The position numbers were made by a program, and so were the translations under genes. Shown one piece after another: positions 114 to 42,015 of a stretch of 64,000 nucleotides of DNA. A model generated the notes under the pieces. It searched no databases. It saw nothing but the letters and a program-made list of their open reading frames with translations, and had not been told where the DNA came from. The DNA is from Xiphias gladius (taxonomy: Eukaryota > Chordata > Actinopteri > Istiophoriformes > Xiphiidae): assembly GCF_016859285.1 (NCBI RefSeq), contig NC_053402.1:25174556-25238555 (forward strand), written 5' to 3'. Each line of letters begins with the position of its first letter. The first letter of the stretch is position 1.

Positions 114-3100
114 GTGTGAAAAGGAGCGTGAGCATCGTGCTCGTCTGGAGGCGGAGCTTAGCAACCTGAGGCTGCTGGAAGAGGAGCTGAAGGTCCACAA
201 ACTGCCAGAGCTGCAGAGTCTGCTGAATGATCAGACGCGACAACTGAGGGAGCTGCAGCTGCAACACCAACAGGTAAAACAATTTTTAAAAACTCACCTG
301 CATTATTCAGACAAACCACCTGCAGCTATGTCACGTTTCCTGTCTTCCTGCGCAGGATATGCAGGGTCTCCTGGCCCTTGTGTCAGCGGGCGTCACCGTA
401 GAGATACAGAGAGCTGAGTCGACAGACCTGATCCAGCAGCTGGACGGCCTGAGACAGACGAGTGTAATGCTGCTCAACAAGAACCAGAATGAGTTCTGGT
501 TCGATGCCCAGGTAGACAAACATCCACAACACGCTGTTATTTTGAAATAAAGGAAACATGATTGAAGAGTGGAAGATTTTCATCATGTAAAACAGCATTT
601 CACCAGGTGTGTTGTGTTCAGGTGTCTGCGTTGAGTTCTCCAGAGGTGACCTTTGGCCCCCCAGAGGTCGTCCAGGCCGAGCTGCTGGAGCTGAGAAGAA
701 CGGCAACCAGCCTGGAGGAAGAGCTGACGCAGCTGCAGACCCTGGTTAGATGCAACGATTACTACTGCACTTTCTGTGAAAGACAACACCTCCAATATAA
801 TAACAACGTAAAGACAAATCTTTGTCCTATTGTTATCCGAAAGTAAAGTGGTGTAGCAGAAACATCTGGGTCCCGTACATCAGCGGTCTGAGTGGACCCT
901 CTTCCCTTTGAATACATCCATCGTCACGTCAGTACAAACAACTGAATCGACAAGCAAACACATGCGCCTGTGCTGGTGATCAGGGTCGTCAGTAATGACC
1001 TGTTCATAACGCTTTTAAGAAACACAAGGATTGAGAAAGGATTACTGTGTCGTAGCCCTGAATCCACTAGTGGAGAGAAATAATCGGCACCTATTCTGAT
1101 ATTTGATTAAACATTTTACTTGTTTTTCAACCAAAGAAAGTGAAAAACATGCGCACACTACTCGGGTTCCAGCTTCTCAAATGGCACGATTTGCTTCTTT
1201 GTCACAGGAAAATGAAAATCTGGGACTGTTGGTCGGACAAAACAAGACATTTGAAAACGTCACTTTGGATACTGTGAAGCTGGGATCAGCACTGTCTTCA
1301 TCATGTGACATTTCATACACAAAACGATTAAACAACAGATCAATCAGTTATGAAAATAACCGTTAGTTGCAGTATTACTTTGTTACACATTACATGTTTT
1401 ATTTGTATTCCCGAGGGTCTTTTCCTTTAAGACGCAGAGCGTTCGATAAGAAAATTCACACCATTCTCATGTATGTGTCACCAGATCAAACCCTGCTCAC
1501 AGCGCTGAGCTCATGGAAAGATTACCCTTGTGATACAGGTCAAAGAGTCAAGCGCGGTTAACGTTTGATTTATGTCATTTGGCTGCAGTAACAGTAAGCA
1601 GTAGCTGTGATGGCCGAGTGGTTAAGGCGTTGGACTTGAAATCCAATGGGGGTTCCCCGCGCAGGTTCAAACCCTGCTCACAGCGCTCAGCTAATGTTCG
1701 TATCTGTCAGTTTGCTTTAGATTCCTATATATAGAAATATGTTTAAACCTCTGGTGCTGCCTCCCCCTTTCAATTCCATGATGGGTCATTCTTGATTCTA
1801 CCACCACATGGTGACTTTAAAAAAAGGGTGTCAGATATGTACTCATCCACACGGACTTAATTTTTGAAAATCTGTGTGAAAACCTGGATTTTGTAGGTCG
1901 CTAAATCATGATTTACTGAGCCATGGTACGTGTGCTGTGATGGCCGAGTGGTTAAGGCGTTGGACTCGAAATCCAATGGGGGTTCCCCACGCAGGTTCAA
2001 ACCCTGCTCACAGCGGTTCTTTGCTTGAAAGACTCATTACTGTGCATTTATTTCTACCAATGCAAATCTAATATATACTCATACAGTACAATTGACCAGT
2101 TTACAGGTAGGTCTGCAATGTAAGCCAAATCCATTGCAAATTTAACCTTACATTGTAAATACAGAACTTGATGTGTAGTTTAAAGTTCTCAATAAAGCTG
2201 CAAGAGAAGGACTATCCTCTACATAACACTAACATGCAGCATTATATATCTTTTTGTCTGTGTAGAACATCCTGCTGGAGGACTCTGGTCTGGAGCAGAC
2301 TGAGTCCCTCGTCCAGCGGCTGGCAGTCCTGCAGCAGAGAGCAGACGGTCTGTGCGGAGACCTGGAGTCAGTGCTGCAGGCTGCAGCTCAGCAGGCTGCA
2401 GATCATCAGGCCCTGCTGGACATCAAGAATGGGCTTGAGACCGAGATGCAAGACTACAAGAGACTGCTGGATGGACTAAGGCGAGAGGGGTACGAGCTAA
2501 CGATAATGGAAACTTCTGACTCTCTTAGGCAGAGGAAGCCGAAAGGTTGCATAAAGTTTTATAGTTACAAAGCCTTTATTTAGTTTTGCATATTGGATTA
2601 AAACACCAACCATTTCAAACCTCACATGGCCTTTCTCAGGGAAGACACAGTAAAAACAGACTGATTACACCTGCTGCTCTTTATAGACAATACACAAGAA
2701 AAATAAATTTTATTCCCTCAGGTAATAAAATGACCAACAAACACAATGAAAACAACTATCAGACTGCAGACTTTTCAAACCAATCTGCATCTATACACTT
2801 GATGTTCACTGTGATGGATTATATAACTCAAACACATTTCAGGACTGGAAATAAATGAGAACGCATTTGAAAATGGTCAGCAAAAAAGTTAAGAATGCAT
2901 TCGGTAATTTGTAGTTAAAGAGCTACAGCAAAAAAACACTGGTATGTTCTGGAAAACTTCCTAGGAAATTATTAAGAAATTACAAGACCCATAATTTAAA
3001 GCATTACCCAGATTTGTTTCATGCCTTTTTGCTTTGAAGAATAATGTCAGCTTTGTTCTTGCCCTTCTTCTTGTCTTTTTATGTTCAAACAGAGTTTCAA

Positions 3101-6100
3101 GTCTTCACTTAAACTCCATGCCTACCATCAGGTCTTTCTGTGCTTCAACCAGACCTGCTGCCTCCAGAAAAGTCACACCGGACAGAGTAGTCAGTGTTCA
3201 GGGAGGAAATCTTTGGATGGTGGAGGTTCAGACTTTCTCTGGAGGCCACGTCAGCACTGTCAGACAAACACCTGTAGTTACCCGGCTTACAGAAACACTG
3301 ACCACAAACCAGTCAACCAGGATCCAAAGTAAATATTCAAAGAGCTCACCACTGACATCGATTAACAATTCAAATCTGACTGACTTGAGAACAGGAGCTC
3401 TTCCCCAAAGGACCGGGTGGGAATCCATCCACGTGGCTCAGATCAGCCAAGGTTTAGACAAAGGAGCTATCTTCAAAGCTTCTAATATGGAGATAAATCC
3501 TACAACAACGGGGATCACCATGTTGGTTTCTGACACACAATCCGCAAGGAGAGCTGGTGTTCAAACTGAACCAGAGACCTTTATTTCCAAACAAACTACC
3601 AAAGAAGCTGGTTCACAGGATAATAAAACTTGGCCACACATTCAAACAGAGCTCACCAAAACCATTCCTGGTGCAGAAACTGAAATAAAGCAAGGACCAC
3701 ATTTTGAAACACAGACAACCACATCTGATCCCCGCAAACAAACTGCTGCAGAGTTAAAGAAAGAGAAAGAAACTACGATTTTAGCTGTAATGGATCACAT
3801 TGAGGGCTCCATCCAAGCTACAAAACCAGATCCTGCACAGGTTATGTCTTTAAAGTTGGAGATTCTATCAGAAACTGTCGGGGATAGAGATGAAATTGCC
3901 CTCACACCATTTGAGGTGTCTGGATCCCACCGTCCTAGGTCTGAGGGGGCTCATGGTGAGTTCTCCAGTGAGGGGACCCTGGCGGATGACAAGGATGTAG
4001 AAAGGCAAGTAAAGAAGGTAGACGAAGAAAAACTAGGAGTAGAAGGTTCTTTGCTTGTCACAAGGTTTGATCAGAATACAGCATTTTCCATTACGTCCAA
4101 CAGCAAACAAAACGAAGTCAAGCAGGATGCAAATACAAGGTCCACCATTGCAACTTCTTCATCCAGTAGCCCACTCAGCAACAGCAACCTTGAGAGTAAA
4201 ACTACAAGTACAGAGATTTTGAAAACAACAGAATTAGAAATGAATAAAGGGAAAGTAGTCAACAGTCCCCATGATACCAGAGAGGTAAAGGTGGCCCCTA
4301 TTGAGTCGGTTAATGTAGCAAGTCAAGAAGCATTGTTGAGTACCAAAAAGTCAAAAGAGGCTACAAGTCTAACAGATTCTGGGGTGGCTATGAGTTCATC
4401 TGACCTTGAAGAGCTTCTGAGTCCAAGTATAACAGATGTATTCCTGAGCCCAATAAAAACAGTTGCATGCTTGAGTCCAGAAATATGTCTGAGCCCAGTT
4501 GAGACAGAAGTGTTAATGAGCATGAAAGATCAAGTATTTTGCCCAGTTGATCTAGAAAACCATATCAAAAGTCCTGATTCGTTTCTGAGTCCAGAAATGT
4601 ATCCCAGTCCAAATGACTCAGACACATGTTTGAATCCAGTCGGGACTAAGGGGTGCCTGAGTCCAAATGGTGAAGAAGAAGAAGAGGAAGCATGCTTAAC
4701 TGAGGCAAATGCACACGTGAGACTAGTCGAGAAATACATTCTCTCAATAAAAGAGGAATGCAAGTCCTTATCATTTAGCGGAGAACGAGCTTTGCCAGAA
4801 GAGGGCAGAAATAGTAGAGTCACCATTTCAGGGAAAGATGGGGAGAGTTTGTGTTATGGATCATTCAAAGGTAAAGAAGGAAGAAGAGATACTCTTAATA
4901 GTACCAACATCAATTCTAGACCAACCAGTCAAGACAGCGACCTTCAGCAGAGCACCAGTCTGGGAAGCTTGGAGATGGGAGGTCCAAGTGGTGGTAGTAT
5001 TGCATACAAAGAAGAGCAGCTTGATTTTGGAGGCCTGTATCGGAAAAGTGTAAGAGATTCAAGAAGTCCTGGAGATAGGTACAAAGATATGAGCAGCACT
5101 GCAGATAACAAGGATGTCCAGAGACAAGATGGCAGTCCAGGAGGCCAGTATGGCTCAGACGACCAGAAAGAGACTGCCAGTATGGGTAGCGGTGTGGCTA
5201 GTAATTCAGGAGGTATGGCTGCTAGCAACAGTGGAATGGCTAGTAATCTTGCAGCTAGTTGTAGTGGCACGGCTGCCAATTCATCAGGTACAGACAGTTG
5301 TAATGCAGAAGCTGCTGCTACAGCAGGAGTAGGGGGAAGATTCAGGTGTGGCAGTGGAGAATTGATGGTTTATGGATGCAGTCTTAGACCTAAAAGCAGT
5401 CTGGATGCCTGCACTAGTTTACCCAGCAATGGGAACAAAGAAAGCCCATCAGTGGCCACAGACCCTGTGACAAGCCCCCCAGAAACAGGGAGATTCTGCA
5501 GGAGAGGAAGTGGAGAGTGGATGTTTTATGGAGGCATTCTTGGACATAAGAGTAGTGTGGACAATGGAGTTAACTTACCCATCACAGGCAGTGAAGAAAA
5601 CCCATCAGTGGCCATGCTCCCTGCGACAAGTCGACACGGGCCAGGGCGGTTTGGCAGCATAGGAAGAGGGGAGTGCATGGTTGACGGTCCCAGTCTTAAA
5701 TCTACGAGCAGCCTGGCTGGCAGTGATGGTTTGCCCACTGTAGGAAATGAAGAATGCCCACCAGCGGTTACCCAACTGGCAACAAGCCCACCAGAAAAAG
5801 GGAGGTTTGGCAGAAGAGGAAGTGGAGGTTGGAGAGTTTATGGTGGCATGACTGGACGTATGAACAGCCTGGCTAGTAGCGATAGCTTACCCAGTGCAGT
5901 GAGCGAAGACAGCCAGTCAGTGGCCCCACAACTAGCAACAAGCGCACCAGTTGCACAAGAAGGAGGGAAGTTTGGCAGTAGATGGAGTGGGGAGTGGAGA
6001 GTTTATGGTGGCAGTACTGGATGTTTGAATAGTGTCGGTAGTGCAGACAGGGTCAGTGATAATGATGGCCATGTGATCAGTGCGCCAAGTAGTGCTAGGA

Positions 6101-6960
6101 GCTGTGGCAGGCTCAGCTCAAGTAGTGTCGTTAGGCGCGGCAGCAGCGTAGGAAGTGGTGGTAAGTTAAGTAGCTCAGGTAGTGGAGGCAGACTCAGCAG
6201 CTCACCTATCAGCCACAGGATTAGCAGCCCTGGGAGAATGGCTAGCAATGGCAGTGGTGAATGGAAGCCTGTTTACGGCTCAGCTAATGGACGCAGGAGC
6301 AGTGTAGGGAGTGCAGGCCGATCGAGTGGAGGAAGGACAACCAGCAGCCAAAGAGCCCCGAGCCCTGGGGGGAGGATGAGTGTCAGCGGGGGTAGCGGTG
6401 GGTGGTTGAATAGTTCAACAGCAGGTGGGAATCGCATTAGCAGCACCGGGAGTGGGTTGAAACTCAGTGGCTCAGGTAGCAATGACAGAATCAGTAGCCA
6501 AGCTGGAGGAAGGACCAGCAGCTCCTGTGGGTCAGGGAGGACCAATAGCACGGGGGGGAAGGTCATCAGCAGCAGGGACTGGACGATCAGGAGCACTGGC
6601 AGCGGAGCCGCAAGCACCAAGGAGAGAATCAGTGTTTGTAAGATGGCAGCGCTGTCGATCTCAGCGGCGGGAAAGGAGAGAAGTCAGGAGAGACAAAGAC
6701 AAGCTCAAAGGTCTCAGCAACAACAACAACTGACTGCAGGTGAGAACAGGTGGTTTTCAACAACAACAACAACAACAACGGCCACAACATGTCAGAAAAA
6801 ACCCCACCAATGAGTACATACGTGCAGTTTGCGTTTTGGTTTAATCTGCTCTCTGTCCTCTCTTGCAGCTACCTCTCCTCTCATTCAGCGTTGGTTGACC
6901 ACAGGCGTCGGGGACATGAGCGCCGATCCTCATGGCCTTGAAGACATCATGCGTCTCTGA
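114..6960 (+). CDS. Divergent type I keratin-like intermediate filament protein with giant tail (5' end outside window)
   Basis: Seen: exons at 114-273, 356-511, 622-744, 2266-2489, 3093-6739 and 6869-6960, with AG/GT borders and matching phases; stop at 6958-6960. The first four exons (160, 156, 123, 224 bp) align in order, phase and length with type I keratin exons 3 to 6 (157, 162, 126, 221). They encode coiled coil and end in a changed helix-termination motif, DYKRLLDGL instead of EYRRLLDGE. The next exon, 3647 bp, encodes about 1216 residues: a Ser/Thr-rich part, a cluster of Ser-Pro motifs, about five 52-aa repeats, then a Ser/Gly-rich stretch and poly-Gln. The last exon encodes a 29-residue end. 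Visible product is about 1466 aa; head, coil 1A and part of coil 1B lie upstream. Known: type I keratin tails are normally about 10-150 aa. Inference: a keratin-derived filament protein with an enlarged tail. No ortholog recognised. Filament assembly is uncertain because the rod is divergent. The donor at 745 (GTTAGA) is weak. Confidence 0.8.
1085..1375. mobile_element. Non-autonomous interspersed repeat, family Q (copy 1)
   Basis: Contains the phrase TTCCAGCTTCTCAAATG, followed by a stretch ending in AAAATAACCGTTAGTTGCAGT. The same phrases recur near 45220-45440 and, inverted, near 54390-54490. No coding capacity. Class not identified; a degenerate MITE-like element is likely. Confidence 0.5.
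1482..1512 (+). pseudogene. 3' fragment of a tRNA-Ser (T arm and acceptor strand)
   Basis: The stretch AAACCCTGCTCACAGCGCT followed by GAGCT matches the 3' end and downstream flank of the tRNA-Ser at 1604-1685, which is followed by CTCAGCT. The 5' two thirds of a tRNA are absent. It looks like a remnant of a third tandem copy or a copied tRNA 3' end. It cannot form a functional tRNA. Confidence 0.6.
1604..1685 (+). tRNA. tRNA-Ser (anticodon TGA)
   Basis: An 82-nt cloverleaf with the long variable arm of tRNA-Ser. The acceptor stem GCTGTGA pairs with TCACAGC and the discriminator base is G. The anticodon stem TTGGA/TCCAA encloses CTTGAAA with anticodon TGA at 1637-1639. The T arm has loop TTCAAAC; A and B box sequences are present. 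No CCA is encoded and no intron is seen. No run of four T follows within about 50 bp, which is unusual for a pol III gene, so activity is uncertain. It lies on the same strand within the 745-2265 intron of the giant-tailed filament gene. Confidence 0.9.
1934..2015 (+). tRNA. tRNA-Ser (anticodon CGA)
   Basis: An 82-nt cloverleaf almost identical to the tRNA-Ser about 250 bp upstream. The two differ at the first anticodon base (CGA at 1967-1969 instead of TGA) and at one base near the variable arm (CACG against CGCG). All stems pair, including GCTGTGA/TCACAGC. As with its neighbour, no TTTT terminator follows closely. The pair looks like a local duplication followed by a one-base anticodon change between Ser isoacceptors. 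Confidence 0.9.
5335..6110 (+). repeat. Tandem repeat of about 156 bp inside the giant tail exon
   Basis: Units begin near 5335, 5488, 5644, 5800 and 5965, so the period is 153-165 bp (51-55 codons), always in frame. Each starts with a GRFG-like motif, followed by RGSGEW, VYGGS and KSSLA-like blocks, then an acidic/Ser part and an ATSPPE-like end. The fifth unit decays into Ser/Gly-rich sequence. A sixth partial block (SGEW..VYGSANGRRSS) occurs near 6250-6310. Confidence 0.8.
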
Positions 6961-7619: not shown

Positions 7620-7625
7620 AATAAA
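7620..7625 (+). terminator. Polyadenylation signal of the giant-tailed filament gene
   Basis: AATAAA about 660 bp after the stop codon at 6960, in A/T-rich sequence without other features. It is the first canonical signal seen after the stop, giving a 3' UTR of roughly 680 bp. Confidence 0.6.
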
Positions 7626-11789: not shown

Positions 11790-12455
11790 TCGTGGCCAAT
11801 CAGAGTTTATTATTCAGAAACTCCCAGCTTCCCATGTCCCCACAGGATCTCCGGAGCTCAGCCAGAGTGACCGTCGGGTTCTTGGTCACGTCTCCTACCG
11901 AGGCCCTTCTCCCGCGACTGCTCAGGTTGGCCGGGCGGCCAGGTTTAGGAAGAGTCCTGGTTGTTCCAGACCTCTTCCATTGAAGAGCAATGGAGGCCAC
12001 TTTGCTCTTGGGAACCTTCGATGCAGCAGAATTTTTTTTTTTGTAGCCTTCCTCAGATCTGTGTCTTGACACAATCCAGTCCCTGAGCTCTGCAGGCAAC
12101 TCCTTCGACCTCATGTCTTGGTTTTTGCTCTGATATGCATTGTCAGCTGTGAGGCCCCATATATACAGGCGCTTTACAGATCATGTCCAGTGATTGGATT
12201 TTACCACAGGTGGACTACAGTCAAGGTGTAGAAACACCTCAAAGATGATCCTGAGAAATGGGAGAAACCATAGCAAAGAGTCTGAAAACTTACGTCAATG
12301 TGATGTTTCGGTTTTTCCTTTTTAATAAAATTAGCTAAAAAGTTCCGTTTTTGCTTTGTAATTAATGGGTATTGAGTTTAGATCGATGATTTTAGCATCA
12401 GGCTGCAACAAAATGTGAAAAAAATTGAAGGGGTCTGAAAAAACCTTCTGAATGA
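11790..12455 (-). mobile_element. Truncated Tc1-like DNA transposon
   Basis: Reading leftward from 12114, the minus strand encodes about 100 residues of the Tc1 transposase N terminus. It has the MRSKELPAELRDWIV start, the helix-turn-helix region with GYKKK and VPKSKVASIALQWK, and the GRPANLSSRGRR linker. The rest of the transposase, including the catalytic DDE part, is missing. The sequence to the right up to about 12455 matches a Tc1 5' UTR and end (ATGTGAAAAAAATTGAAGGG). A full element would be about 1.6 kb, so this is a 5' fragment. Confidence 0.85.
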
Positions 12456-13479: not shown

Positions 13480-14959
13480 CAGGCGAATATTAAGAAACCA
13501 GTAAATCTTCTTCAATACTTCTCTTCTTCTTTTTCTCAGACCTCCTCTGATGATCAAGTCTTAGGAATTAAACCATTAAAATCAGTTTAAATACTGAGTC
13601 GTAGCCTGAAGCAGCTTAAATCCAAAATTCATCACTGACTAAACAGAATGTGGCGTTAACTGTTTTTTTCGGATGCCGGCTGAAATGACTGATGCTGTCG
13701 TTCTTCTTGTCCTGTCTTCCACTTTTTATCAAGACAATGAGGAAATGTTATTTGTGTGTAATTTTGAATATTATTTATTTTGAATTATATATTTTGAATA
13801 TATAATTGTGAATATTGTCATAGCTCCAAAGCTCCAAACACTCAACGTGACACACGTGGAACAGTTTCAAGGTTTCAGCAGCGAACACACCTACAGAATA
13901 TTTACCTCAGAAGCTTCTAGTTTGAATTCTTAAGTGTCCCAAAAAAAGGGAGACCACCGTGTCTGCCAGGAACCAGGCTTTGCTTCGCCTGTACTCCGAC
14001 TTAACGTGAGGCCCGAGAAAAGTAGCCACAGGTAAGAATCGCCTTGACATTTTTCCTTTTATGGTGAAAATGTGCGGCAGCGGGTCTGAAACAGAGAGGA
14101 GGGCAGGCTGGAACAAAACGCAGGATTATCTGCCAGGTGTCGACTATCGGAGCAGCACAGACACAAACCGAGATGAAAAGGAAACAGAAAAACACATTTA
14201 GTGAGGAACATGTTCTACAGCAGAAAGAATCAGAGAAAAAGCAAGAAAACTGAAGATGTGGGGTAAAACGGAGAGAATCAAGGCATGCACGCAGTCCAGT
14301 ATCCTTCCTACTGCTCTAGTGTCCTTCAGGTGTGTTTTGCTTTTATTGTTTTCGGGGGGGAGTGTGTGAGAAGGCAAAGATTGTAGGTTTTAAACCTCGG
14401 GCTTTAGCATGGAAGACAGGATTTATGTTCTTAAGCTGCAGCTATGCATCAAGGCGAGCGAGCACGTTGGGAAAGGAGCAGCTCCGGTAAAAGAGACTTC
14501 TGCAGCAGCAGCAGCAGAGCAGGGGTTGACAGACAGTTTGACGAGGACCGAGCGGTGACGGCTGAGTGAATGATTGATGGTCCCATAAAGGCAGAAAGGG
14601 AGACTGAAGAACATGTACGAGACGGAGAGAAAGCTCGGGGGGACTAGAGGAAAGAATTCAGGCGGCGTCACACCCTGAGGAGGAGGAGCAGGCATCTTGA
14701 GAAGCTTTTGTATGAAGCTTCCGTCTGTGCAGACCCTACAGTTATATCCTCTGAAATACAGCCGCTCTTTGGGAACTCACTTCGGTGCAGAATTTCCACT
14801 TGCACGTTTATGTTTTGTAAACTTGTCTCAGACTGCGGTGAAACAAAGTGCCACTCGATTTGTGGTTTTTCCCGCACGCGACGTGTGTTGCCCATCACGC
14901 AGAGAATCTGCTCCAGTTTCACACCGACGTGGTGATGTCGGGTGCAGAGACGCGGGCTG

Positions 14960-15197
14960 GTGTCCATCTGCACCTCGCCTATGGTTCCATGGTAACCATA
15001 CGGGCAAACACACACATGTTCGTGGGAGTCCAGCAGCCCCTTGCACTTCCCTCCGTTCTCACAGGTATCACCGTGGCAGACGGTGACGTTTCGGGATCCA
15101 TGGACCGAGATCTTGCTCTGGGAATCGCCCCGCTTACAGTCGAAAGTCCAAAGTGGTTTTGGGACTTCAGCAGGGTCGTCTTTGTAACTGGTGTGCA
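14960..15197 (-). CDS. Candidate minus-strand exon with an EGF-like domain
   Basis: Reading leftward, the frame gives an N-glycosylation-like NVTVCHG, then Cys spacing C-x4-C-x5-C-x10-C-x-C followed by PYGYHG, the layout of an EGF-like module. The sixth Cys expected after GYHGxx is replaced by Gly, or lies in another exon. A possible donor sits after GGCGAG near 14973 (minus strand). Upstream residues (WTFDCKRG) add a further Cys. The host gene was not recognised. EGF modules are usually extracellular and disulphide-bonded. It may be a decayed exon or chance. Confidence 0.3.
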
Positions 15198-15988
15198 CCG
15201 GTGAGCTTAATCCAGGTGATGATCTCAGGTCATGTTGGCTCTGCAGGGTCCAGTTTTACCCCCTTGTCCAGAGACTCCTGCTGCTTTCATGTTTGTCAGT
15301 CCTCTCAGAAAGATGCCCGAGATCCTGAAACCTGGTCCTGACCAGGTACCAGCCCCTCCTTCTGTGGCACGTTAGCAGGTGGCCATTTTATTCCCCTGCA
15401 GAACCACTCCACGTTAAATCGGTGATTATTTCTACCAGGTTTGGTTTATAACAACATCCCCCGGCTGGTGACACCGAGGAGTCTCATCTCCGGTTTTTCT
15501 TCAGAAGTCAAATTTTCACATTTCTGTTGTAGAAGAAAATCCACTCGGTTCACGGAGACCACGGCTGCTCTCCTCTTTTAAAGAAATTCTGACTTTTCAC
15601 ATCGACAAACAAATGAGCACAACAGCCAATCAAACCGCAGCGTGGTAACAGGTAATCGGCCCCACCTGGCTGTTTTCATTACCAGAGACTGTGGACATGG
15701 ATCAGTTGATGTTGTCCCCACGTACAGACCCCTCCAGCCAAGAGCGATTAAAAGACCTTTAAAACTCTCCTATCAGACGCCGAGCTTCAACTGTAGAATA
15801 ATGATCATCAACAGCAGAATTTATCCAGAATTATATCGATTTCTGACTCCGGGCCAATAAACCCACTTTGTTCTGCTGCGGCAGAAAAGGCTTTGACCCA
15901 AATGATCCATCGCCTCCATACAAACTGTACGTGTCCTGCACATGTACGTATTCCTTAAAACCTAATGACAAATTAGAGGTGATAGGAC

Positions 15989-21947: not shown

Positions 21948-24900
21948 ATGATATCGTTTGGCTCCAAAAGCTCCAGGTCGGCCGTTGGTGGAACCTACAT
22001 GGGCAGTAGTAGGTCCATGTACGGTGGTGCCGGTGGCAGACAGGTCCGGATCTCCAGCGGTGGCTCCTCCATGTCCATGTACAGCAGCGGAGGTGGTGGA
22101 AGTGGTGGAGCTGGCTATGGCTTCAGCTTTGGTGGAGGTGCAGGTGCAAGTGCAGGGATCAGAGTGGGCGGTGGCGGTGAGATGGACATCTCCGCCAACG
22201 AGAAGTCCACCATGCAGAACCTGAACGACCGCCTGTCCTCCTACCTGGAGAAGGTCCACAAGCTGGAGTCGGCCAACGGCGACCTGGAGCTAAAGATCAG
22301 ACAGTTCCTGGAGAACAAGGTTTCCCCCACCGCCAGAGACTACAGCGCCTTCTACGCCACCATCGTAGAGCTGCAGGGAAAGGTAGGTAACATCATGGTC
22401 ACGGAAGGTGTGTGCACATACCTGTCAGCTTAAACACATCATCCCACCTCGCTTCCATCCTGTTCTGTAAGTTTCCCCGACCCACAAAAATTCCCCTGAC
22501 TCTTCGGCGGAAGTGACAGCATGAAAACTGACAGCGTTAGCGTGACGACAGCAGCAGGTTGTTTATGTCACGTCACAGACAGAGAATTTAAACATTTTGT
22601 GAGTATAATCAATGGTAGATGCATAAAAGTCAACCTGATTATACCACATAACCACATGTTGGAGAACTACATTAGATCATGCACACATGGACCAGTACAC
22701 CCAGGAGGAAACTGTCTTACCCGTCTATTTCATTTCATTTCGTCAGGGTCCACATTTGAAAAGTATCCCACAGTACTTTGGAAGGACTGAAAAAAAAAGG
22801 GACATGAGATGGATCCTGGCAGACATGTCACTCTTCCCAAATTTCGTTTAATCAATATAATGACGACTTGTTTCTAAAGAAAATTCCTACATAAACCTAA
22901 GAATAGAAAGAAGAAGAAAGAGCCGAGAAAACAGAAACCTAAAATAAAAATGAATGAAACACCACCACACTTCAGACTGCGGGAGGTCTCACATCCTCTA
23001 AATACACCGAGTAAGAGAGTGTGATTTACTGCTGAGAGCAACAGGACACGTTTTGCAGTGGAGACCGACTGACATCTGACATTTTCCTCTCAGCGTGCAG
23101 ATTGGACAGCGCTGCAGGGGCTGAGCTTGGCCTTCAGGGACCGCCGCAAGACATGGCAGCGTGAAACTGAGTAGAAGAATGTCTTGTTATTATTTCACCT
23201 CAGGCCAAAGGACAAGGGATGAATCCTGTTGTTTTAGGCAAAGAAAAATCTCGTCAGCTGCTGGTAGTTCCTGCTGACGGAGCAACGGAGCTGCTGTTGA
23301 AACATGAGACACACAGCAGTCAACACTGCAGCCTCACAAAATGAATCTACCGTCAGCACCTTTAACCTCTACTGTTCGAGTCCGGCTGGAGTCGGATGGC
23401 ATGTGTTACGTCTGCTACAGAACACAGTACATATCCGCTCCGTGCTGCGTTCTCCTTCAAAATCTGAATTGAAAAGGGAGAAATGAATGTGTTATTTCGA
23501 TGCTTTCTTTCCATGTGTTTGCATTAATACATCAGAATATGGTTATTTCTCCGTCTCTGTACATGGGGAACTTTAAAATAATGGTAAAAATCCCTGAAAT
23601 TCTCCGTTGACAAAGAGTGAACATTAGAATCTAACAGCGTCTCTTTGCTCCTTCATCTTCCAGATCCAGGACACTACCAAAGTCAACGCTGGCACCTACC
23701 TCTGCATCGACAACGCCAAGCTGGCCGCTGACGACTTCAGGGTCAAGTGAGTGAATGAAAAAAATCAGTCTGAGCGAAGGCTCGCTTCGGTGAAGTTTGG
23801 CACGAGAAATTTTGTCCCAAACGGAGGAAGTTATCGAGGCTTATTATGTGCCACCACCCAGGTTTACCGCACGAGACGTGGTTTACACACAGGTGCTGCT
23901 AACTGAGCGTTAGCTTCACTAGCTTCGTTTTCCCTCCGCAACACGAACTGAAGACTCGGGCCATTTCCTGTCCCTGCAGCAGCAAAACACCAGTTTCCTT
24001 CCAACATAGAAACGGCTGCTCATGTGTTCATTCAAAAAAAAGAAAAGAAATACATTCATCATCGTCATCAAGGTTCTCTTCCTGAACTCCCATACAATCC
24101 TTTAAATAAGATGCTACTTTAAATGTCTCCGTTTTAGACATTGTGAATGCTTCACATCCAAAGAGACGACAAAGTTCTCCGAACAAAAGACGATAAAAAA
24201 CCAAAACGACCTTCATTTCACAGGCCGCACAAATGCGACTTTCTTCCTCCAAAGCAGCGCTCTGAGCCGTTTCTGTAGGAAGAGGCAGATCGCCGGATCT
24301 GATGGAGGCACAAATAGAGTCAAACAATCATATTAAACACCTTTTCCCTCAGAGATAGAAAATCAAACACCTCCTCAAACCCATATCACACATATCCGTC
24401 ATCCAAGGTCCATTTGCTGGACATCCCATTTAAATATTTAAAATAACACATTTGTAAGAATAAAGTTTTAGATAAGTAAGTAAAGGACTCAATTTTTAAA
24501 AGAAAAGAAAAATACTGCGGTTTCATGTTGTTACGATGCGAATCAGATCTTTATCGTGGACGACTGGTTGCAGCGGATAAACCGTCGCTATGCTCATGTT
24601 TATTGCTACGTTTCAGCCACACTCCCATCCGGACAATGTGAACCGTGACCAACGGATGTCAGGCGTCATAACACAGTATATACTGTATATATAGTAATGA
24701 TAGTTTGCAAAAAATGATAAATTGCAAAAAAGTGCATTACATCTCTGATCCAGTGAGTGTAGATGGGTTGTGAATCATCAGGGGTCCAGCAACCAGAGAT
24801 GCAAAGAAAACAGCGATTAATTTACACTTCGGAAAATGATCTTCATTTATTGTTAGAAAAGAGATTTAGAAATGAACTTCACGTCTGTTGTTCAGGTTCG

Positions 24901-27900
24901 ATAACGAGCTGGCCATGCGTCAGTCGGTGGAGGCCGACTGTGGCGGGCTGAGGAGAGTCCTGGACGAGCTGACTCTGGCCAGGACCGACCTGGAGATGCA
25001 GATCGAAGGGCTGAGGGAGGAACTGATCTACCTCAAGAAGAACCACGAGGAGGTCAGTGTCCTCTCAGATCTTATTGAGCAGATTGGGCATTGGGGTAAA
25101 TAAATTGGGTAAACAGAATTAAACACAACAGGTTAAAGATAAATTAATCCAGTTCCCTCAGAGACTAGACATGTCTTAGTGGACCTAGGTTTGCTGCAGT
25201 CAGATGGAGGTTTAGCGAGTGCTGAATCCTCACTTCCACCTGTGTCTCCTCATCCTTGCTGGTTCTGTAGGACCTGCTGGCTCTGCGAGCTCAGATGAAC
25301 AGTGAGGTCCACGTGGAGGTGGACGCCGCTCCTCAGCAGGACCTCACCAAAGTCATGGAGGAGATCAGAGAGCACTACGAGGGTGTCGCCACCAAGAACC
25401 GCAGAGACCTGGAGTCCTGGTTCCAGACAAAGGTGAGGATGTGGTGTTGAGTCACACTAGTGCTGCGGTTCTGGGGATGGTCACGTCTGTTGGTCCACCT
25501 CTCTGGTCCAGACTGAAATATCTCTGGATGGATCGTGACGAGGATAAATCCTACTGATTCTGTTGATCCTCTGACTTTTCATCTACAGCCACCATGAGGT
25601 TCACTTTTGTGATTATGAGTGAAATATCTCAACAGCATTCGTGACCTTTCACTAACATGGCTGGAGACAATAGACAAATATACCCTGCGTTAGACAAGGT
25701 CATGAAACAAGAAAGTCTCAATATACTGCAGGTTGAAGGAGGAAACATAATTAACATGATTTCTTCGTTTTTCTACTTTATTATATCCTGTATGTACAAA
25801 GTAGTTAGTAAACACAGATAGATGTGGGGGAGTTACTTCACACCTCTGGAGAACTAACTCAATACTTCCGTGTTTTCGCTCTCTACAGACAGAAATACTA
25901 AGCAAAGAAGTGGTTGCCAACACAGAAACCCTCCAGATGTCCAGTTCAGAGATCGTAGAGCGCAAACGGTCGCTGCAGGTCCTGGAAATCGAGCTGCAGT
26001 CCCAGCTCAGCATGGTGAGCGTCACGTCACATCTCAGAACATGTTGTCAATTCCAGAGAATTTCTGAGGCCAAAAGCTGACTGAACCGTCTCCGCTCTGT
26101 GTCCTGCAGAGAGCGGGGTCGGAGGCCACCCTAGCCGAAACTCAGAACCGGTACGCCGTGCAGCTGTCGGGTTACCAGAACCAGGTGGGCAGTCTGGAGG
26201 AGCAGCTGATGCAGCTGAGGGCCGACCTGGAGCGTCAGGGACACGAGTACCAGATTCTGCTGGACATCAAGACCAGACTGGAGATGGAGATCGCCGAGTA
26301 CAGGAGGCTGCTGGACGGAGAGTGCAGGTGAGACACCTTTGGCTGTGTGAGAATTAAAGGCTATTTACAGGGTGAACCGCTAGGAAACATGTCGTGGAGG
26401 CCAGTACCGGAATCTGACAACAGGAGCAACAATAACAGAGGGTCTGAGCGAAATTGACCAGAGGGTTCAGCAAGTGTTTGTCACATAAAAAACAAGGTCA
26501 GAACCAATGTTGACAGGAGCCGGTTTATTTCTTCTTAAAGTTCACGTTTCATTGCCATGGAACCGGCAATTTTTCACTTGATACTATCCGATCTAATTTT
26601 TATGCCGGAAGACGTCAAATGATTTTGGGGCTTCATCACTGTTCATTTGACTGATTGAGTAGGTCCAACATTTGTACATGTAGCTCTGTGTACTGTTCCC
26701 CTGAAACACAATGTTTAGAGCACGACGGGACGTTGAAACTGCAGCTGAAACTCAGGACATTCAAGTTATTCTAGGGTTAAATCTATTTTGGGTTTTGTTC
26801 TCTGCAAATAAATAACTTTTGGGCATCTGACATTAGGCTTTTTCACTCAGATCCAACATCTTGAACATTTTATCAGAAAAAAGCTTTAGAAACAGCATCA
26901 GCATCATCAGGACTCTACAGGTCTCAGCTGAAACTTGGGAAAATCTAATTATTTGATCAATAATTAGATTCAATCTAATTGAATCTAAATATATCAAATC
27001 AAAAATTTCCAACAAATGTATTAAAAACATAAAATTATAAAACATAAAATTAAATCCTGCTGCAGGTTTCAAAAACTGGGTAAGAGTCGTACTTGTTGGA
27101 TCAAATTTGATCCGAAAACAGCTGAATACACATCCAATAACAACAGAAATCGTTGACAAAGGCTGTGGCCAGGATAAAGCAACGACAGAGCAAATAAGAA
27201 AATACAGAATTTTCTTTCATAATTCATTAAAACTGGCTTTGAAAAAATGCCCAAAACATCAAATGAAGGGGAAAAAAATCCTCCTGGGATCAAAGCACAT
27301 TTATTACCAATTACTAAATGATAATTATTAGTGTTTATTTATTATTATCTCCAGATTTTCACTGTCCCATGATTATGGGCTCAAATAAGGGTCCAAAAGT
27401 GGTGTGGCTCTTTGTGAATCTGCGTCAAAACCCTAAATGAGAAACTCAACTCTGTGAAGTTGTAGCTGCAGAAAAAACAGAGAATGAAAGTCTAAATTAA
27501 AACGTGTGCGAAAGTACAATAAAAATAAATGAAAAACGTCAAATCTGTACTTGTACCTTAATGCAGTTCTTAAAAAAGCTAATTTTTCCCTCGTTCTTTG
27601 TATAAAATGACCCTTCGTATAAATAGAGCACAAATATGATCATCAACTTCAACTCCTCGTCATACAGGTTTACAGAGGACGATTGTTTATTTAACCTCCT
27701 CAACATTAGTATTGATCCTAATTTGAGCTCATACATTAAGGCTCTAAATAGCAGGATATTAATAGGTCATATCTTCATCCATCAAAATAATAAACATCTG
27801 AAAACAAATCGGACTCTTCTGTTTGTCTCTTTTCCTGCAGCCTCTCCTCCTCGTCCTCCTCCTCTACCTCCACCTCCACCTCCACCTCCACCTCCAGCAC

Positions 27901-27991
27901 CAAACAGAAAGTAATCACAGTTATAGAGGAGATTGTGGATGGAAAAGTGGTGAGCTCCTCTTCATCAGAGACCTTCAGCGAGGCCCTGTGA
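21948..27991 (+). CDS. Keratin A: type I cytoskeletal keratin, complete, 443 aa
   Basis: Seen: seven exons at 21948-22382, 23664-23746, 24896-25052, 25271-25432, 25889-26014, 26110-26327 and 27841-27991, all with AG/GT borders. Internal lengths (83, 157, 162, 126, 218) are the type I keratin pattern. The head, about 85 residues, is Gly/Ser-rich. Coil 1A starts with [15 protein letters not shown]. Coil 2 ends with EYRRLLDGE. The tail has a Ser run, a (Thr-Ser) repeat and [10 protein letters not shown]. Known: type I keratins pair with type II keratins as 10-nm filaments in epithelial cytoplasm. The start was chosen because it follows a TATA box and short leader and opens the typical fish keratin head. 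AATAAA at 28045-28050 follows the stop. Exon 3 is almost identical to that of keratin D, whereas exon 6 resembles keratin B, which suggests gene conversion. K13/K15-like by general form; orthology not assigned. Confidence 0.95.
25495..25660 (+). mobile_element. Interspersed repeat, family R (copy 1, in keratin A intron 4)
   Basis: Contains CTGGATGGAT, then GATCCTCTGACTTTTCATCT and AGTGAAATATCTCAAC-like words. The same order occurs at about 63235-63420. Non-coding, class unknown. Confidence 0.55.
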
Positions 27992-28044
27992 GCACCAACA
28001 GGGGGCGCTCTCGCTGCTCACACACACACACAGACAAACACGCA

Positions 28045-31620: not shown

Positions 31621-34600
31621 ATGAACACCTACTCTCGCTCCGTCACCTTCTCCAGTGGACACCGTCTCGGGTCCACGAGGGCCCCCAGCGTGTACGGAGG
31701 TGCCGGAGGCTCCGGGGTCCGCATCTCCAGCATGAGCGCTCCCAGAAGCTTCTCTTTCGCTGCAGGTGCTGCTGCCGGTGCTGCTGCCGGAGGCGGCTTC
31801 AACCTGGCCGACGCCATCGACATCTCCGACAACAAGAAGATGGCCATGCAGAACCTGAACGACCGCCTGGCCTCCTACCTGGAGAAGGTCCGCAACCTGG
31901 AGGCGGCCAACGCCGACCTGGAGCTGAAGATCAGACAGTTCCTGGAGAACAAGACCAAACCTGAGGGACACGACTGCTCTGCATACAAGGCCGTCATCAG
32001 TGACCTGCAGGACCAGGTGAGACCAGGTTCTGATTCTGTACACAGATTTGTCACTATCCTAAGGTAAGGCTGTAGAAGAGGCACAGAAGAAAGACTGGAA
32101 ATGTGAGATCATGTGAAAATGTCAAGATAAGAATACTGCCTGAAACCGAAGATGCTCCGTTTGTCTGAGAGCTTTTCACGCTTGAAAACACAAGCATCGT
32201 CCTCACTGACACGAAACCCCCCCTGGCAGGTTACAGTGGCCGAGGCAGGCAGGCACGGTCTGTCGCGTCCTGCAGGATGAGTACAGGGGCAGCCACACCC
32301 AAACAACACAGACACCGACTGCGGCTGCAGCATTCAGGCTCACGACAACAGAAAACCACTAAAACAATAACGGGAACTTTGACTTTTATTTGCATGGTCT
32401 TATCTTTTTTAAACCAGTTGTGTAGCTGTCTCCCGAACCTTTCACACTCGTTGTATTCACCCTCATCTTTACACTCAGGTGAAATAGGAAATCAAGAAAA
32501 GGACACACTGTAAACCACAAAATAAAGTTTTTAATCTTCAGTATTATTTAAGACACAAAGGCAGCCAGACGCTGGTGACGGCTGTTAGATTCATCTCCTT
32601 GAAGCTGAAATACTTCGAAAAGTCATTTGTTTTTGAGTCTCAGTTAAGTTTAGAGACACATCCGGCCTAAATCTGTGTGTCCTTCTGTCCTCAGATCTTT
32701 GACGCCACCCGTACAAATGGATCTCTCTACCTGGCGGTCGATAACGCCAAACTGGCCGCTGATGACTTCAGGGTCAAGTGAGTACGCGAGCACAGGACAT
32801 TCACATCAGAAACCGCGGCTGCGCTCGGCTTTTACGCGTAGACAACTGTAGGGTGATGTCGTATTGGAATTCACTTCCTTTACTGAGCTGGTTTTTCTGC
32901 AACACCCAAAATATCTCTATGAACAGAATTTACTGACACAGCCTGAAACATTTTTCTTGAAGGAATAGAAAGACTTAGTTGCTTTGAAAAACGACAGGAA
33001 GTTAATTATAAACTGCTGCACAGGCAGCAGTGGCTGTGGAGCTTCACTCAGAAGCTTCTCGTTTTTAGGTTTCCTTCAGTATCACAGTGACCCAGTGACA
33101 GTTGTCTGAACGTCCACGGCTGCAAACGGGAGCTGATCTCAGCTGGTTCAGCAGCTTTTAATCGGACAGTTTGACTACATGTAAAAACACATATAGTCTA
33201 AATTACGGGAACATGATTATCCCCCAAAACTGAAGTAAGATAACAAATAACAAAAAGAGTGAAGAAATCCATAGATTTTTATTTTTTTGTGATGCACTGT
33301 TTGTTTACAGTACTAATCCTCCGAATGTCAAACCCCCCAACCTGCTCTATGACAGCTTTTGTTCCGTTCTTTCTTTGTGAATAATATTTAATGGAGTTCC
33401 CAGTAGCATAGCAATCATTTAGCAGTCAAGTACTTGACCAGACATCAGATGCTGTGGTTTTCCGGAGAGGCCAGTCTCTGAGCTTTCCGTGCTTTGGATC
33501 AAGCGGCTGATGTGACTGATGCTGCTGCTGTGCAGGTATGAGAACGAGCTGGCCATGCGTCAGAGCGTGGAGGCCGACATCGCCGGGCTGAAGAGAGTCC
33601 TGGATGATCTGACGCTGGGAAGATCCGACCTGGAGATGCAGATCGAGGCACTGAGGGAGGAACTCATCCAGCTCAGGAAGAACCATGAGGAGGTGGGCAT
33701 GAAACCGAAAACTGCTCATTATCGCTTCATCTCAGTTTATTATTTTGATGATTTGATTCATCATGTTTTTAGTCCATGTTTTGAAACAGCAGATTTGTTT
33801 GAATAAGAGCCAAAACCCTTAAAGGATTTAAATTTAAAATGATATTTTAAAAAAAGCAGAAAGCAAACTTCAGAAAATTGGATTTATGGCCTAATAAACA
33901 ATTAGAAAAAATGATAGTTTCTAATCATTATCATTGACAAATTTTTCAGTGATCTGGATGTGTTTTCCCGCAGGACCTGCTGGCCATGCGAGCTCAGATG
34001 AGCGGTCAGGTTAACGTGGAGGTGGACGCCGCCCCTCAGCAGGATCTGTCCGCCGTCATGGCCGGAATCAGAGAGCACTACGAGAACGTCGCTGCCAAGA
34101 ACCGCAGAGACCTGGAGTCCTGGTTCCAGGCCAAGGTGAGCTTCATAAACCCGCTCTTATCAAGAAAATCTTGACTAGATTTAATTAAGCACACTCCCCA
34201 GTGTACCCATCTTTAAGCCGTAGTATCTTTGTAATGACACGCTGCCAGTGAAAAGCTCCTTTTTGTGGAAAAAATATTCTGACCCTGTAATTTAAAAGAA
34301 AAACTGGGGGTTTTCCCATTCACTTCAGTACAGTAAGGTGTTTTCTAGCAGCATCTAGTGGCTGTTAATGGACCCGCAGGCTATACGATGCCTGACCCTG
34401 TTACACTCGACAATATAAAAACCTACACAGCCAGCGGTCTTCTCACAACCTTGACAAATTCTACGTAATTTTAAATCTCTAAGTCTCCTGATTCTATCTG
34501 TGCAAAGCGTTTTAGGATCCTCATGTCACATATCACAACTATTGTTGACACAGATTTGGTTCTGACTTGTGGCTCCAAAGTTTGTTCCACAAAAAAAAAA

Positions 34601-35777
34601 AAGTCCAACCACAGTGGTTTTCTTTCAAACGCCACCAGGTTATGACGTTTATGAAAAGGGTTGAAGTACAGTAACCTTTTTATTTTAGGAGCATTTATTT
34701 CAGGCTTGTGCACAAAAATGGGGGGGGGCATAAATCACCACTGGTCAAAGAAAGTGAGTATTTAAAAAGTCAATAATCTAATTCAATCCATCAAGTACAG
34801 TGAGAAATAAAAACACAGAAGTGTTAATAATAGAAATGACAAACAGTAAGGTGTCGTCTACATACATGCTGATTTATGAGCAGTTTTAAAACAGACATTT
34901 TTTTCTTTCGTTTTGTTGTTTTTATAGTCTGAGGAGCTCAATAAGGAAGTCGCCGTGAGCACCGAGTCTCTCCAGTCATCACGCTCCGAGGTCACAGAGG
35001 TCAAACGCTCGCTGCAGGGTCTGGAGATCGAGCTCCAAGCACAGCTCAGCATGGTGGGTTTCTACCTTTCCTTGGTCCTTTTTAATTTTGAAGCAACAGA
35101 GTCTGTACATCTCCTGACACTGTGTTTTCCCCCCGTTAGAAAGCGTCTCTGGAAGGATCCCTCGCCGACACCCAGAACAGGTATGGCGCCAAGCTGACAG
35201 GTTACCAGAGGCAGGTGTCCGCCCTGGAAGACCAGCTGGCTCAGCTGAGAGCCGACCTGGAGCGTCAGGGGCACGAGTACCAGATGCTGCTGGACACCAA
35301 GACCAGGCTGGAGATGGAGATCGCCGAGTACAGGAGGCTGCTGGACGGAGAGCTGTTGAGGTGAGTTGACCAGTCCATACTGGGATAATACTGGGATACA
35401 TCAGATGTCAGATGTCAACAGGTCGGCATTGTCTTGAGACGAGATGAGACAGATGAGACAGTCAAACAGCGGCAGCCGTCAACCGTCTCTAAAATACATT
35501 TAGACAAAGGCATCATAAAAAGATAATTTAGGACACTTAAAAAGATTTGTGTTCAAATAATTAAATGTAAATAAGAGTATAACAGTTTCACAGCTGACAG
35601 CAGCCTGAAGTACCAGCACCGTAAGAAGCTTCTTTAGCCTGCTGAGTTAACAGGAGTCTTGTTTCTGTGTTTTCCTGCAGCCCCTTGAAGTCCACTACGA
35701 CTCGCAAAGTGCTGATTGTCACCAAAGAGGTCGTGGATGGTGAAGAGGTCAGCTCCAAGACTGAGGAGACAAACTGA
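31621..35777 (+). CDS. Keratin B: type I cytoskeletal keratin, complete, 413 aa
   Basis: Seen: seven exons at 31621-32016, 32695-32777, 33536-33692, 33974-34135, 34928-35053, 35140-35360 and 35681-35777, with the exact 83/157/162/126/221 pattern. The head is short, about 70 residues, with an Ala/Gly run. The rod starts [16 protein letters not shown] and ends [10 protein letters not shown]. The tail is short, without the Thr-Ser repeat, and carries [14 protein letters not shown]. The frame is open upstream to 31447, but the ATG at 31621 was chosen for its good context (CCACC ATG), its distance from the TATA-like box and because it opens a normal keratin head. Known role: heterodimer with a type II keratin. 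AATAAA follows at 35827-35832. It shares sequence patches with exon 4 of D and exon 6 of A, and is the closest match to the decayed keratin C. Confidence 0.95.
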
Positions 35778-35826
35778 GACAACAAACATCTGTCGACACG
35801 ATGCCAACCGTTCTCAGAAATACACA

Positions 35827-37960: not shown

Positions 37961-40439
37961 CATGAGGAAAAATGAGTGTTTTCAGCAGAGACCAAACTTT
38001 ATCCTGAAAATGCAGAACCTAAAACGTTTTTGGACTTTTTATTTGTAGCTTCGCAGCGACGTTCACACCTGAAACTACCTCTGATGGGATTTTGAACAAA
38101 GCGTTTCATCCTTACTGAGTTCCCTGAGGCCGCTGAGCCAGCGAGTCTGGTCTGGTCATCACAGTCCAGCGACACTGAAGTGCCGTTAAAAATTCGGCCT
38201 GAAGTGATCTGAACCCGTCAGACGGGCTCATTAAACCCCAGCTCAAATTTTCTGCTTTCACCCCGTCAGCCCTGCTGGTAGTCAGCCAATCTGGCCACTC
38301 TCTAAGTGGAGCGAGGACTTTTGCGTGACGTGACTGGATGGTCTTGCTGAAAAACGACGTAGCAACAGTGCTGCTCCTCAGGACCAAAAGGAACTCTGGC
38401 GTAACCCCTCTGCATTTTGTGGCAGTGCTGTGGTCGTGTCTGTGAGGAGCTCACTTAGCTCACAAGCAGAGGAATTTTCTCAGCGTATAGACTTTTCTCT
38501 GGAGGGCGGAGAGTGTGAATTAAACCTAAACTGTCTACATTTACACGAATTACAAACCTCCTGACTCCTTCCGTTCTTCAGCGTCTCTGTGGACAGACCT
38601 GTGGGCTCCGAGGTGTCCGAGGGCCGACTGGATGTCTGCACCTCGGGGCTCCGCGTGGACTGACGGAACCGGTCCATCAGGCGAAGCCTGTCCAAACAGC
38701 TGTCTGGCCCCTCTGAGGCATCACCTGGAGGAACAGCCCCCTCACCTGCTCAATTCAGATCGGCTTTCTCTCTGGGCCCCTGGGGCAGCACTGCCCCCCG
38801 GCATGTTTGGCATCCGCATCTCCAAGGCACCCTACTCCTTCTCCTCCGCCGGTGCTGCCGGCGCTGCCCTAAACGTGGCCGACAACATCGACATCGCTGG
38901 CAGTGAGAAGGCCACCATGCAGAACCTCAACGACCGCCTGGCCTCCTACCTGGAGAAGCTGCGCTCGCTGGAGAAGGCCAACGCCAAGCTAGAGATGAAG
39001 ATCAGGCAGTTCCTGGGGAGCAGGGCCAGGCCGGAGGGTCACAACTTCACCGGCTTCAACATACGCATCAAAAAACTACATGAACAGGTGAGAACGCAAA
39101 CACAGAGGAACAGCAGGAAGCTGGGGGCTTCTTTACCCTGAATTCAACCTCCCAGGCAGCTTAGCCTCGCGGGCAGGCCTCAACACGCTCCACCAATCAT
39201 CTGCTTCGGGTTAAAATCCTAAAACCAGGACTAGAGATACAGTTACAGAGTCAAGTCTTTCCTTAGTCACAATTCTAAGAATCTGATCAGAGTTTATTTG
39301 CACAGGAAAACCTGAAAACTAAAAAAGAAAAAAGAAAATGTAAACAAAACAGGAAAAATCACTGGACACAATCCATCACTGGAAGACAAAAAAAAAAAAA
39401 AAAACAGACAAGGACTGTGGTGGTGAGATAAAAAATAATAAACTAAAGGCACCTCACCAAATAAATTAATAAATAAGGCCGTTAGGCAACTAAGCTTAGA
39501 TTTGATTAATGAGGAAACAAAAAGTAACTAAAATGTACTTTAATTCCCATTTACAACCTGCACTCGCACATATTCAGACCAAATATCTTAAATAATAAAC
39601 TAAAGTAAAAAGGGAATTTTCTGATTTTCTAAAACGCTCAAAAAATTGTACAGAGTTTGGTTGGTGGCTGGTCAGAGGTTTGTCAGCTGGGTGGGGTTGT
39701 GCAGGAGGAGTTTGCTGACTCGTGACTTCTGTGTTTTTGAAACCCTGACCGCGGCGTTTAGGTCGCCTGATCTGCCTGTAAGGCCGAACTCAGGGAGAAA
39801 AAGCTGGAAATCAATTGAATGGATTGATTTAAAGCTCAGGGAGAGAAATTTACTAGTCAGGTTAAGAAAAAATAACTAAGAATAAAGAGTTCACGTGAGC
39901 TTTCAACGTGAACAGGAGTGACTTAAAAAGTCATCATCATTTATACATTTGAACATTTCATAAAGCTGCTTATTTACTGTGTTACTTTATTCGTGAATCT
40001 AAGTCCAAAGCCTGGATAAACGTCAGTTAATTAGATGAATTAGACGGATAATGTTTGGTTGAACTCAACTTTTACAATGAAAACTGTGGAAATGTTTTGT
40101 AAAGTCTCGGGTTTGTAATAAAGGACAGAAGCAGGTGACTGTTAATCCCCTTGAAAAGGTTCAGTTTCGTCTGTTTAAATGTCGTTTGTTTGTTTCTTTG
40201 TCAGTAAATATGTGTTGTGAATATTTGCAGTAGATGATGTTTGACTTGCAAAACCTATTTCAACACCAGAGGACGAGGAGAGATGAGAGTTTCAAGTAGA
40301 GGAACCGGTCTGTTGATGCAGCAGGTGGCGCTGGGGGGTGTCAGGTGCGGACGGGTAGCGTCACCTGAGTGTGATGAAACACGAGTCTGACAGGCTGCAG
40401 AGTTTCTGTACAACTCAAATACTGTTCAGTTTAAGTTTT

Positions 40440-40760
40440 ACTACTCTTTGTTTTTAATTAGTTTTTAGTTTTTGTTTTTACGTTATTTAAGTTTGAAGAT
40501 GTATTCATTTTAAATCTAAAAATGTTTTTGAATTAAAAACATTTTTTTTAAAGTTTTAATTTGATTAATTTTTGATATTAGTTTTATTATTAATTCAGTA
40601 TTTTATTTTAATATTTTATAACTGTTTTTTTTTAGTTTCTCATATAAGTTTCTAAATTTGATTTTGAAATGTTTTTAGAGTTATTTTTTAGGTTATTTAA
40701 TTACTTACCTTTTTTTTCCACTTTCGTCTTTTTTACATTTTATAAGTTTTCGTTTTCAAA
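40440..40760 (+). repeat. T-rich low-complexity stretch in keratin C
   Basis: Repeated TTTTAGTTTT and TTTTATAA-like words. The same kind of sequence recurs at about 41695-42015, in the interval where exon 5 should lie. Confidence 0.6.
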
Positions 40761-41694: not shown

Positions 41695-42015
41695 GGTTCT
41701 GGTTTTTTATTCATTTATGAGTTTTGTAACTTTTTAGTTGTTTTTCAGTTCTTTGAATTTTAGTTTATAAGATTTATACATTTTTTCTTTTATTCTTTTA
41801 TTTAGTTTTATAATTTTTGGATTTTATAAGTTGAACTTTTTAATGTTTTATACCTTTTCATTTGTTTTTTTTAGTTTTACGAGTCGTAGTTTGTATGTTT
41901 ATAACTTCTTTTATTTAGAAGCTTTACCTTTGAAGTTTTGAACTTTTAGAACATTCATTTTCAGTTTTATAACTTTTCATTTTTAAGTGTTTAACGTTTA
42001 CCTTTTTAAAGTTTT
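41695..42015 (+). repeat. T-rich low-complexity stretch between exons 4 and 6 of keratin C
   Basis: Words such as AGTTTTATAACTTTT and GAACTTTTAGAAC recur irregularly. No keratin exon 5 sequence is visible here. Confidence 0.6.

Follow-up and report, generated by a model that had tools for sequence, protein, structure and literature searches.

The left end of a 64,000-nt stretch of Xiphias gladius DNA (NC_053402.1, positions 25,174,556 to 25,238,555; hereafter the window) carries a predicted gene of six exons in which a divergent intermediate filament rod is followed by a giant tail. As judged from the sequence, this is a real, odd, keratin-derived gene, and the giant tail is very probably part of that same gene. 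On balance, we consider it probable that it is a working, fast-evolving intermediate filament gene which arose from a type I keratin in the cluster, acquired a tail some 1,250 residues long and would serve to link or space filaments.

The six exons (Table 1) join into one 1,466-residue frame without internal stop, whose left end is open. Each of the six follows an AG, GT comes directly after all but the last, and this last one is closed by TGA. A pyrimidine-rich tract lies upstream of the acceptor at 3093, and the donor of exon 622-744, GTTAGA, is weak-looking. The junctions 2489/3093 and 6739/6869, already placed there in an earlier note on this DNA, are correct as judged by their AG/GT borders and the continuous frame; with intron 6740-6868 retained, the frame would stop at 6813. 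The intron between the equivalents of exons 5 and 6 also houses two tRNA-Ser genes (anticodons TGA and CGA, at 1604-1686 and 1933-2016), 97.6% alike over 82 bases.

The joined rod exons were compared with the Pfam Filament profile (PF00038), a search proposed in the earlier note, and scored 68.4 bits (E = 1.1e-18, profile positions 91-309 of 313), above the family cut-off of 40 bits. The best relatives of solved structure were K14 (4.1e-8) and K10 (1.2e-6), both type I keratins; vimentin reached 8.7e-4. In a genome search with the same profile, run exon by exon on the 690.8-Mb assembly (221 candidates, 127 scored), the gene was not among the 141 matches, which indicates that its single exons are far diverged.

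The exon architecture points to type I. The equivalents of exons 3, 4 and 5 measure 157, 162 and 126 nt in each of the three window keratins that appear intact; exon 6 measures 218 and 221 nt in two of them and 75 + 149 = 224 nt in the right-most copy. The gene keeps the intron phases of these neighbours over exons 3-6 with lengths of 160, 156, 123 and 224 nt and, compared with 157/162/126/221 nt, its exons differ by whole codons (+1, -2, -1 and +1). These changes are placed in coil 1B, near the start of coil 2, in exon 5 and past the rod-end glycine, respectively. From the first codon of exon 6 to this glycine, a hand count gave 70 residues both here and in K14, and the rod-end motif is retained in an altered form (EMQDYKRLLDG). 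Neither here nor in the neighbouring type I genes is exon 3 split; this is the type I arrangement, exon 3 being split in types II and III. Against the three neighbours, the claim that four exons keep the position, phase and near-exact length of type I keratin exons 3 to 6 was therefore borne out.

At the sequence level, a hydrophobic residue is kept at 35 of the 47 columns that are hydrophobic in all six reference rods, versus 20 of the 110 columns where at most one of them is. G+C content by codon position is strongly uneven in the rod (0.73, 0.32 and 0.70). The sequence suggests a coiled coil that is kept yet weakened at the start of coil 2. The gene departs from the type I norms of segment length and proline-free coils; because of its altered segment lengths and four prolines (considered below), we class it as derived from a type I keratin and not as a typical keratin.

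For pairwise and tree comparisons, human sequences entered by hand were used. The rod obtained 85.9 bits with K14, 85.5 with K18, 82.0 and 77.0 with two window keratins, 54.7 with vimentin, 50.8 with K8 and 25 with each of BFSP1 and BFSP2 in BLAST comparisons; the coil-2 part gave 71.6 with K18, 67.0 with K14 and 48.5 with K222. Its identity with type I keratins over the shared rod is 27-29%, versus 60-61% between the two window keratins and K14, and its branch spans 2.76 changes per column, compared with 0.10-0.16 for the three apparently intact window keratins. The rod is thus as highly divergent as had been stated. The tree comprised nine rods: BFSP1 was left out after a first tree, in which its end branch reached 5.19, and a decayed window copy (KC) and K222 were never included. 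In the row of the right-most window keratin the last exon runs one base too far (59078 for 59077), which affects the final residue of that row alone. The best tree joins the gene with K14 and the three window keratins. In the approximately unbiased (AU) test, a position as sister of vimentin alone or of K8 alone was rejected (0.035 each), and type I placements were retained with all type I rows (0.324), with the window keratins alone (0.295) or as sister of K18 (0.212). Since sequence alone leaves the descent unsettled, the type I claim is carried by gene structure and position. Taken together, exon architecture, profile score, pairwise rank and location at the cluster edge back the earlier proposal of a keratin-derived gene, for which the tree alone would be insufficient.

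This location was examined by tblastn with K14 and K18, which placed four additional type I copies, on the strand of the gene itself, at about 22.2-26.3, 31.6-35.4, 38.9-42.6 and 53.8-59.1 kb. A fifth keratin copy lies right of the window, in flanking stretch L023. On the left, MBT repeats on the minus strand of flank L022 (5.1e-31 and 4.5e-14) mark another gene, so that the gene studied here is the left-most cluster member seen. The best keratin match in L022 had E = 0.20; in the outermost fetched flanks of 9.9 kb (L025 and L026), a search for keratins up to E = 0.1 gave nothing. The locus is probably the edge of a keratin gene cluster.

The window starts directly after exactly 2,500 N (L021:7357-9856, in the left flank), and these are preceded by a 1.4-kb ACAG array (L021:5944-7355). 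Further upstream, a candidate first exon (L021:4642-4848, with an ATG at 4642) would encode 69 residues ending QKLTLQQLNRRLASYLQQ, followed by a GTAGGA donor. It resembles the start of coil 1A, as shown by a match to K14 over 24 residues with 50% identity (E = 0.001 in the 9.9 kb searched); its match to the Filament profile was weak (E = 0.082). An intron inside coil 1A would be unusual.

The tail amounts to 1,246 residues, compared with about 34-51 residues in the neighbour keratins, which fits the view that type I tails are normally short. Its main exon measures 3,647 nt, close to the 3.6 kb and 1200 residues first estimated. The frame is open over 1,272 codons; at the rate at which stops occur in the two remaining forward frames, the chance of 1,215 open codons would be about 6e-37. 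On the forward strand of 20 keratin-family loci (3-4 kb each), the longest open frame was 436 codons and none came near 1,272.

Serine (16.4%), glycine (10.8%) and threonine (7.9%) are abundant in the tail, which contains 21 cysteines and 23 [ST]P sites. The description of this tail as low-complexity holds in part: 212 of its 1,221 windows of 25 residues fall under 3.0 bits, 145 of them in the last third. Net charge is negative in all seven 100-residue blocks between residues 401 and 1100 and is +19 over residues 1201-1400. Five degenerate repeat units start at 5335, 5488, 5644, 5800 and 5965. All six ungapped repeat matches found hold the reading register, and differences between repeats climb over codon positions 1 to 3 (0.233, 0.346 and 0.387; chi-square p = 1.8e-5, an optimistic value because the repeat matches overlap). 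The proportion of non-synonymous differences (pN) is lower than that of synonymous ones (pS) in ten of ten pairs of units, the corresponding rate ratio (dN/dS) being computable in nine. As pN/pS is not frame-specific (see below), it was not used as proof, and register and codon-position pattern were relied on instead.

No significant match to the tail was found in Pfam (best E 0.27, 12 bits, cut-off 27), nor any match in PDB up to E = 0.1, and a genome search with the tail returned one match, the tail itself. Scans of prokaryotic and viral contigs gave no relative, a miss that is uninformative on fish since only such contigs were covered. An AlphaFold model of 523 tail residues, made without relatives, had a mean predicted local distance difference test (pLDDT) value of 39.5 and was uninformative. 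From its composition, we infer that the tail is mostly unstructured.

A keratin-head origin of the tail repeats, considered for the shared VYGG, was not supported: when units 4-6 were aligned locally to the head regions of three window keratins, there was no clear gain over shuffles, 58 to 895 of 1,000 shuffles being as good in the nine comparisons. VYG occurs four times in the tail, once each in units 1, 4, 5 and 6, and none of 5,000 shuffles reached four; one per unit is as expected from internal duplication. Similarly, we do not claim homology to keratin tails past the join. The best of four tails, that of K18, was equalled by 38 of 2,000 shuffles and by 12 of 288 other tail windows, and those of window keratin KA, K14 and vimentin by 207, 643 and 673 of 2,000 shuffles, respectively. 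The earlier assignment of the giant tail to one protein with the rod is supported by phase, splice signals and open frame; likeness to a keratin tail after the join adds little, being weak.

Table 1. Features of the keratin-derived gene and of its keratin neighbours in the window
Position	Strand	Feature	Remarks
114..273	+	Equivalent of type I keratin exon 3; rod, coil 1B	160 nt; neighbours 157
356..511	+	Equivalent of exon 4; rod, end of coil 1B, linker L12, start of coil 2	156 nt; neighbours 162
622..744	+	Equivalent of exon 5, rod; three prolines SSPEVTFGPPEV, none in the six reference rods	123 nt; neighbours 126
2266..2489	+	Equivalent of exon 6; rod, remainder of coil 2B, then the rod end ...ETEMQDYKRLLDG	224 nt; neighbours 218, 221, 224
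3093..6739	+	Giant tail exon, Ser/Gly/Thr-rich	3,647 nt; frame open 2995-6813
4417..4665	+	Acidic run of LSP-centred motifs with 6/6 tail LSP and additional SP and NP; proline-directed phosphorylation may occur here	
5335..6108	+	Five degenerate repeat units, consensus GRFGRRGSGEWMVYGGSLG..SSL...D.LP	48-55 residues each
6109..6630	+	Ser/Gly/Arg-rich basic stretch	Partial sixth repeat unit at 6232-6330
6869..6960	+	Last coding exon, TGA at its end	
7620..7625	+	Putative polyadenylation signal (AATAAA) for this gene	Another at 7923
about 22197-27995, 31621-35778, 53799-60167	+	Type I keratins, apparently intact	

Among the other keratins of the window, the copy at 38893-42595 looks decayed, with shortened exons 3 and 4 and an exon 5 that was not found. 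In the right-most keratin, exon 6 is split in coil 2B by an extra 126-nt intron (58803-58928, GTGAGA...GCAG) which is missing from its two intact neighbours. The minus strand carries a fragment with a Sleeping Beauty-type transposase helix-turn-helix domain (11803-12180, 7.8e-13) and an open frame with a weak EGF-like match (14671-15255, E 0.015-0.018, below cut-off).

The properties of rod and tail suggest how the protein might act. A single huge exon, at the place where intron 6 ordinarily lies, would encode most of the tail. Through the preserved hydrophobic core and coil 2B, the rod may pair with a type II keratin, and the protein would enter keratin filaments as a minor subunit; the prolines at the start of coil 2 and the small deletions suggest that it does not build filaments alone. 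The tail, with its acidic LSP-rich middle, its repeats and its basic Ser/Gly/Arg-rich end, would project from the filament and link or space neighbouring filaments, with phosphorylation as the likely switch.

The frame 2266-2583 continues past the donor of exon 6 (stop at 2581-2583), and ATTAAA (2597) and AATAAA (2702, 2724 and 2850) motifs lie inside intron 6. One could therefore suppose two genes, a short keratin-like gene reading into intron 6 and an independent Ser/Gly-rich gene whose start would lie close to the first ATG in the 3093 frame. The different base composition of rod and tail and the weak likeness to keratin tails past the join would fit this supposition. However, donor 2489 and acceptor 3093 are in phase at the intron-6 position of the neighbours, with the pyrimidine-rich tract before the acceptor, and an independent gene would require an upstream exon or promoter of its own (none was searched for). 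We regard two genes as unlikely. A decaying keratin copy, open by chance and without present function, appears most improbable: although the branch is very long (2.76 versus 0.10-0.16 changes per column), the rod contains prolines and the pseudogene-like copy at 38893-42595 belongs to the same cluster, six of six exons are open with AG/GT borders, the tail frame extends over 1,272 codons, core hydrophobic positions are retained and the codon-position G+C content of the rod is uneven (0.73, 0.32 and 0.70). Alternatively, the rod may reside outside keratin filaments, in a plakin-like cytolinker or scaffold whose basic Ser/Gly/Arg-rich end would bind microtubules or membrane. Plakins carry Gly-Ser-Arg repeats, and both this basic end and the coil-2 prolines are consistent with such a role; the tail contains just seven GSR/GRS/GGR motifs and no S-x-I-P motif, and gave no significant profile match, which leaves a cytolinker decidedly unlikely.

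Several observations weigh against the preferred reading, that of a working gene derived from a type I keratin with its tail in the same protein. The 2489/3093 join on which it depends is predicted from sequence alone, and the mostly unstructured state of the tail from composition alone. Third-position G+C content is 41% in the tail exon (3094-6738) versus 70% in the rod, as if the two parts might have had different histories. In the repeats, pN/pS is 0.66 in the true frame but 0.67 and 0.68 in two of the five other frames. The rod contains four prolines (three in exon 5), against 0 or 1 in each of the six references and 2 in BFSP2, and its profile positions 21-90 fall outside the sequence read, presumably in the N gap. 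Support for the grouping with K14 and the window keratins is only 75/68, and the AU test keeps both a sister position to BFSP2 (0.192) and a grouping with vimentin and K8 (0.237).

It is possible, and we propose it tentatively from these predicted features, that fish made from a type I keratin a separate long-tailed lineage, acting as an obligate filament linker instead of a builder, and that this lineage is independent of nestin, neurofilament and the archosaur keratin KRT78LT. Should rod and tail truly form one protein, the filament family would have acquired long tails in a further branch, here from a type I keratin in an ordinary cluster. The gene would then let one study, in a natural setting, how keratin networks respond to a tail longer than 1,000 residues and how a rod with prolines in coil 2 still assembles.

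Among known proteins, the closest comparison is with the window type I keratins and human K14 and K18, which share the Filament rod and the positions and phases of exons 3-6; the window keratins also share strand, cluster and the intron-6 position before the tail. They differ in tail length (about 34-51 versus 1,246 residues), and the coil-2-start prolines are a feature of the gene described here. K222 lacks the first rod half and scores 48.5 bits over the coil-2 part, versus 67.0 for K14 and 71.6 for K18. It is likewise a divergent keratin-like gene in a type I cluster (PMC7086170). Identity with phakinin (BFSP2) was rejected, given 25 bits, 22% identity over shared columns and the presence of a giant tail frame, BFSP2 being without tail; a common branch with it is kept by the tree.

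Krt117 is described as a type I keratin whose exon structure is deviant and which occurs in fishes, amphibians and reptiles (PMC7086170), and zebrafish is credited with 21 keratin genes, one of uncharacterised type (PMC8733776). The literature consulted yielded no giant-tailed type I keratin from fish, from which we do not claim its absence from print. The type VI proteins (nestin, transitin, tanabin and synemin) similarly combine a rod with a long repeat-bearing tail, and in tanabin a single giant tail exon of 4,848 bp is accompanied by one small last exon (PMC2075511). However, type VI rods are encoded by three exons at other intron positions (PMC2075511), whereas the gene studied here retains type I intron positions, so that the type VI pattern was not found. 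The contrast with nestin and synemin drawn in the earlier note thus stands as to intron positions; it left out KRT78LT, which is a long-tailed keratin. This archosaur type II keratin has a tail of above 1,700 residues with more than 50 cysteines and resembles the present gene as a keratin gene flanking a keratin subcluster and bearing an unusually long tail (PMC7086170). For sauropsid keratins whose long tails carry repeats, a cross-linking of filaments by these tails has been put forward (PMC11816140); in the literature consulted, this idea comes nearest to the linking role considered here. Nevertheless, KRT78LT is of type II and cysteine-rich, in contrast to the gene described here, which has a type I-like exon 3 and 21 cysteines in 1,246 tail residues.

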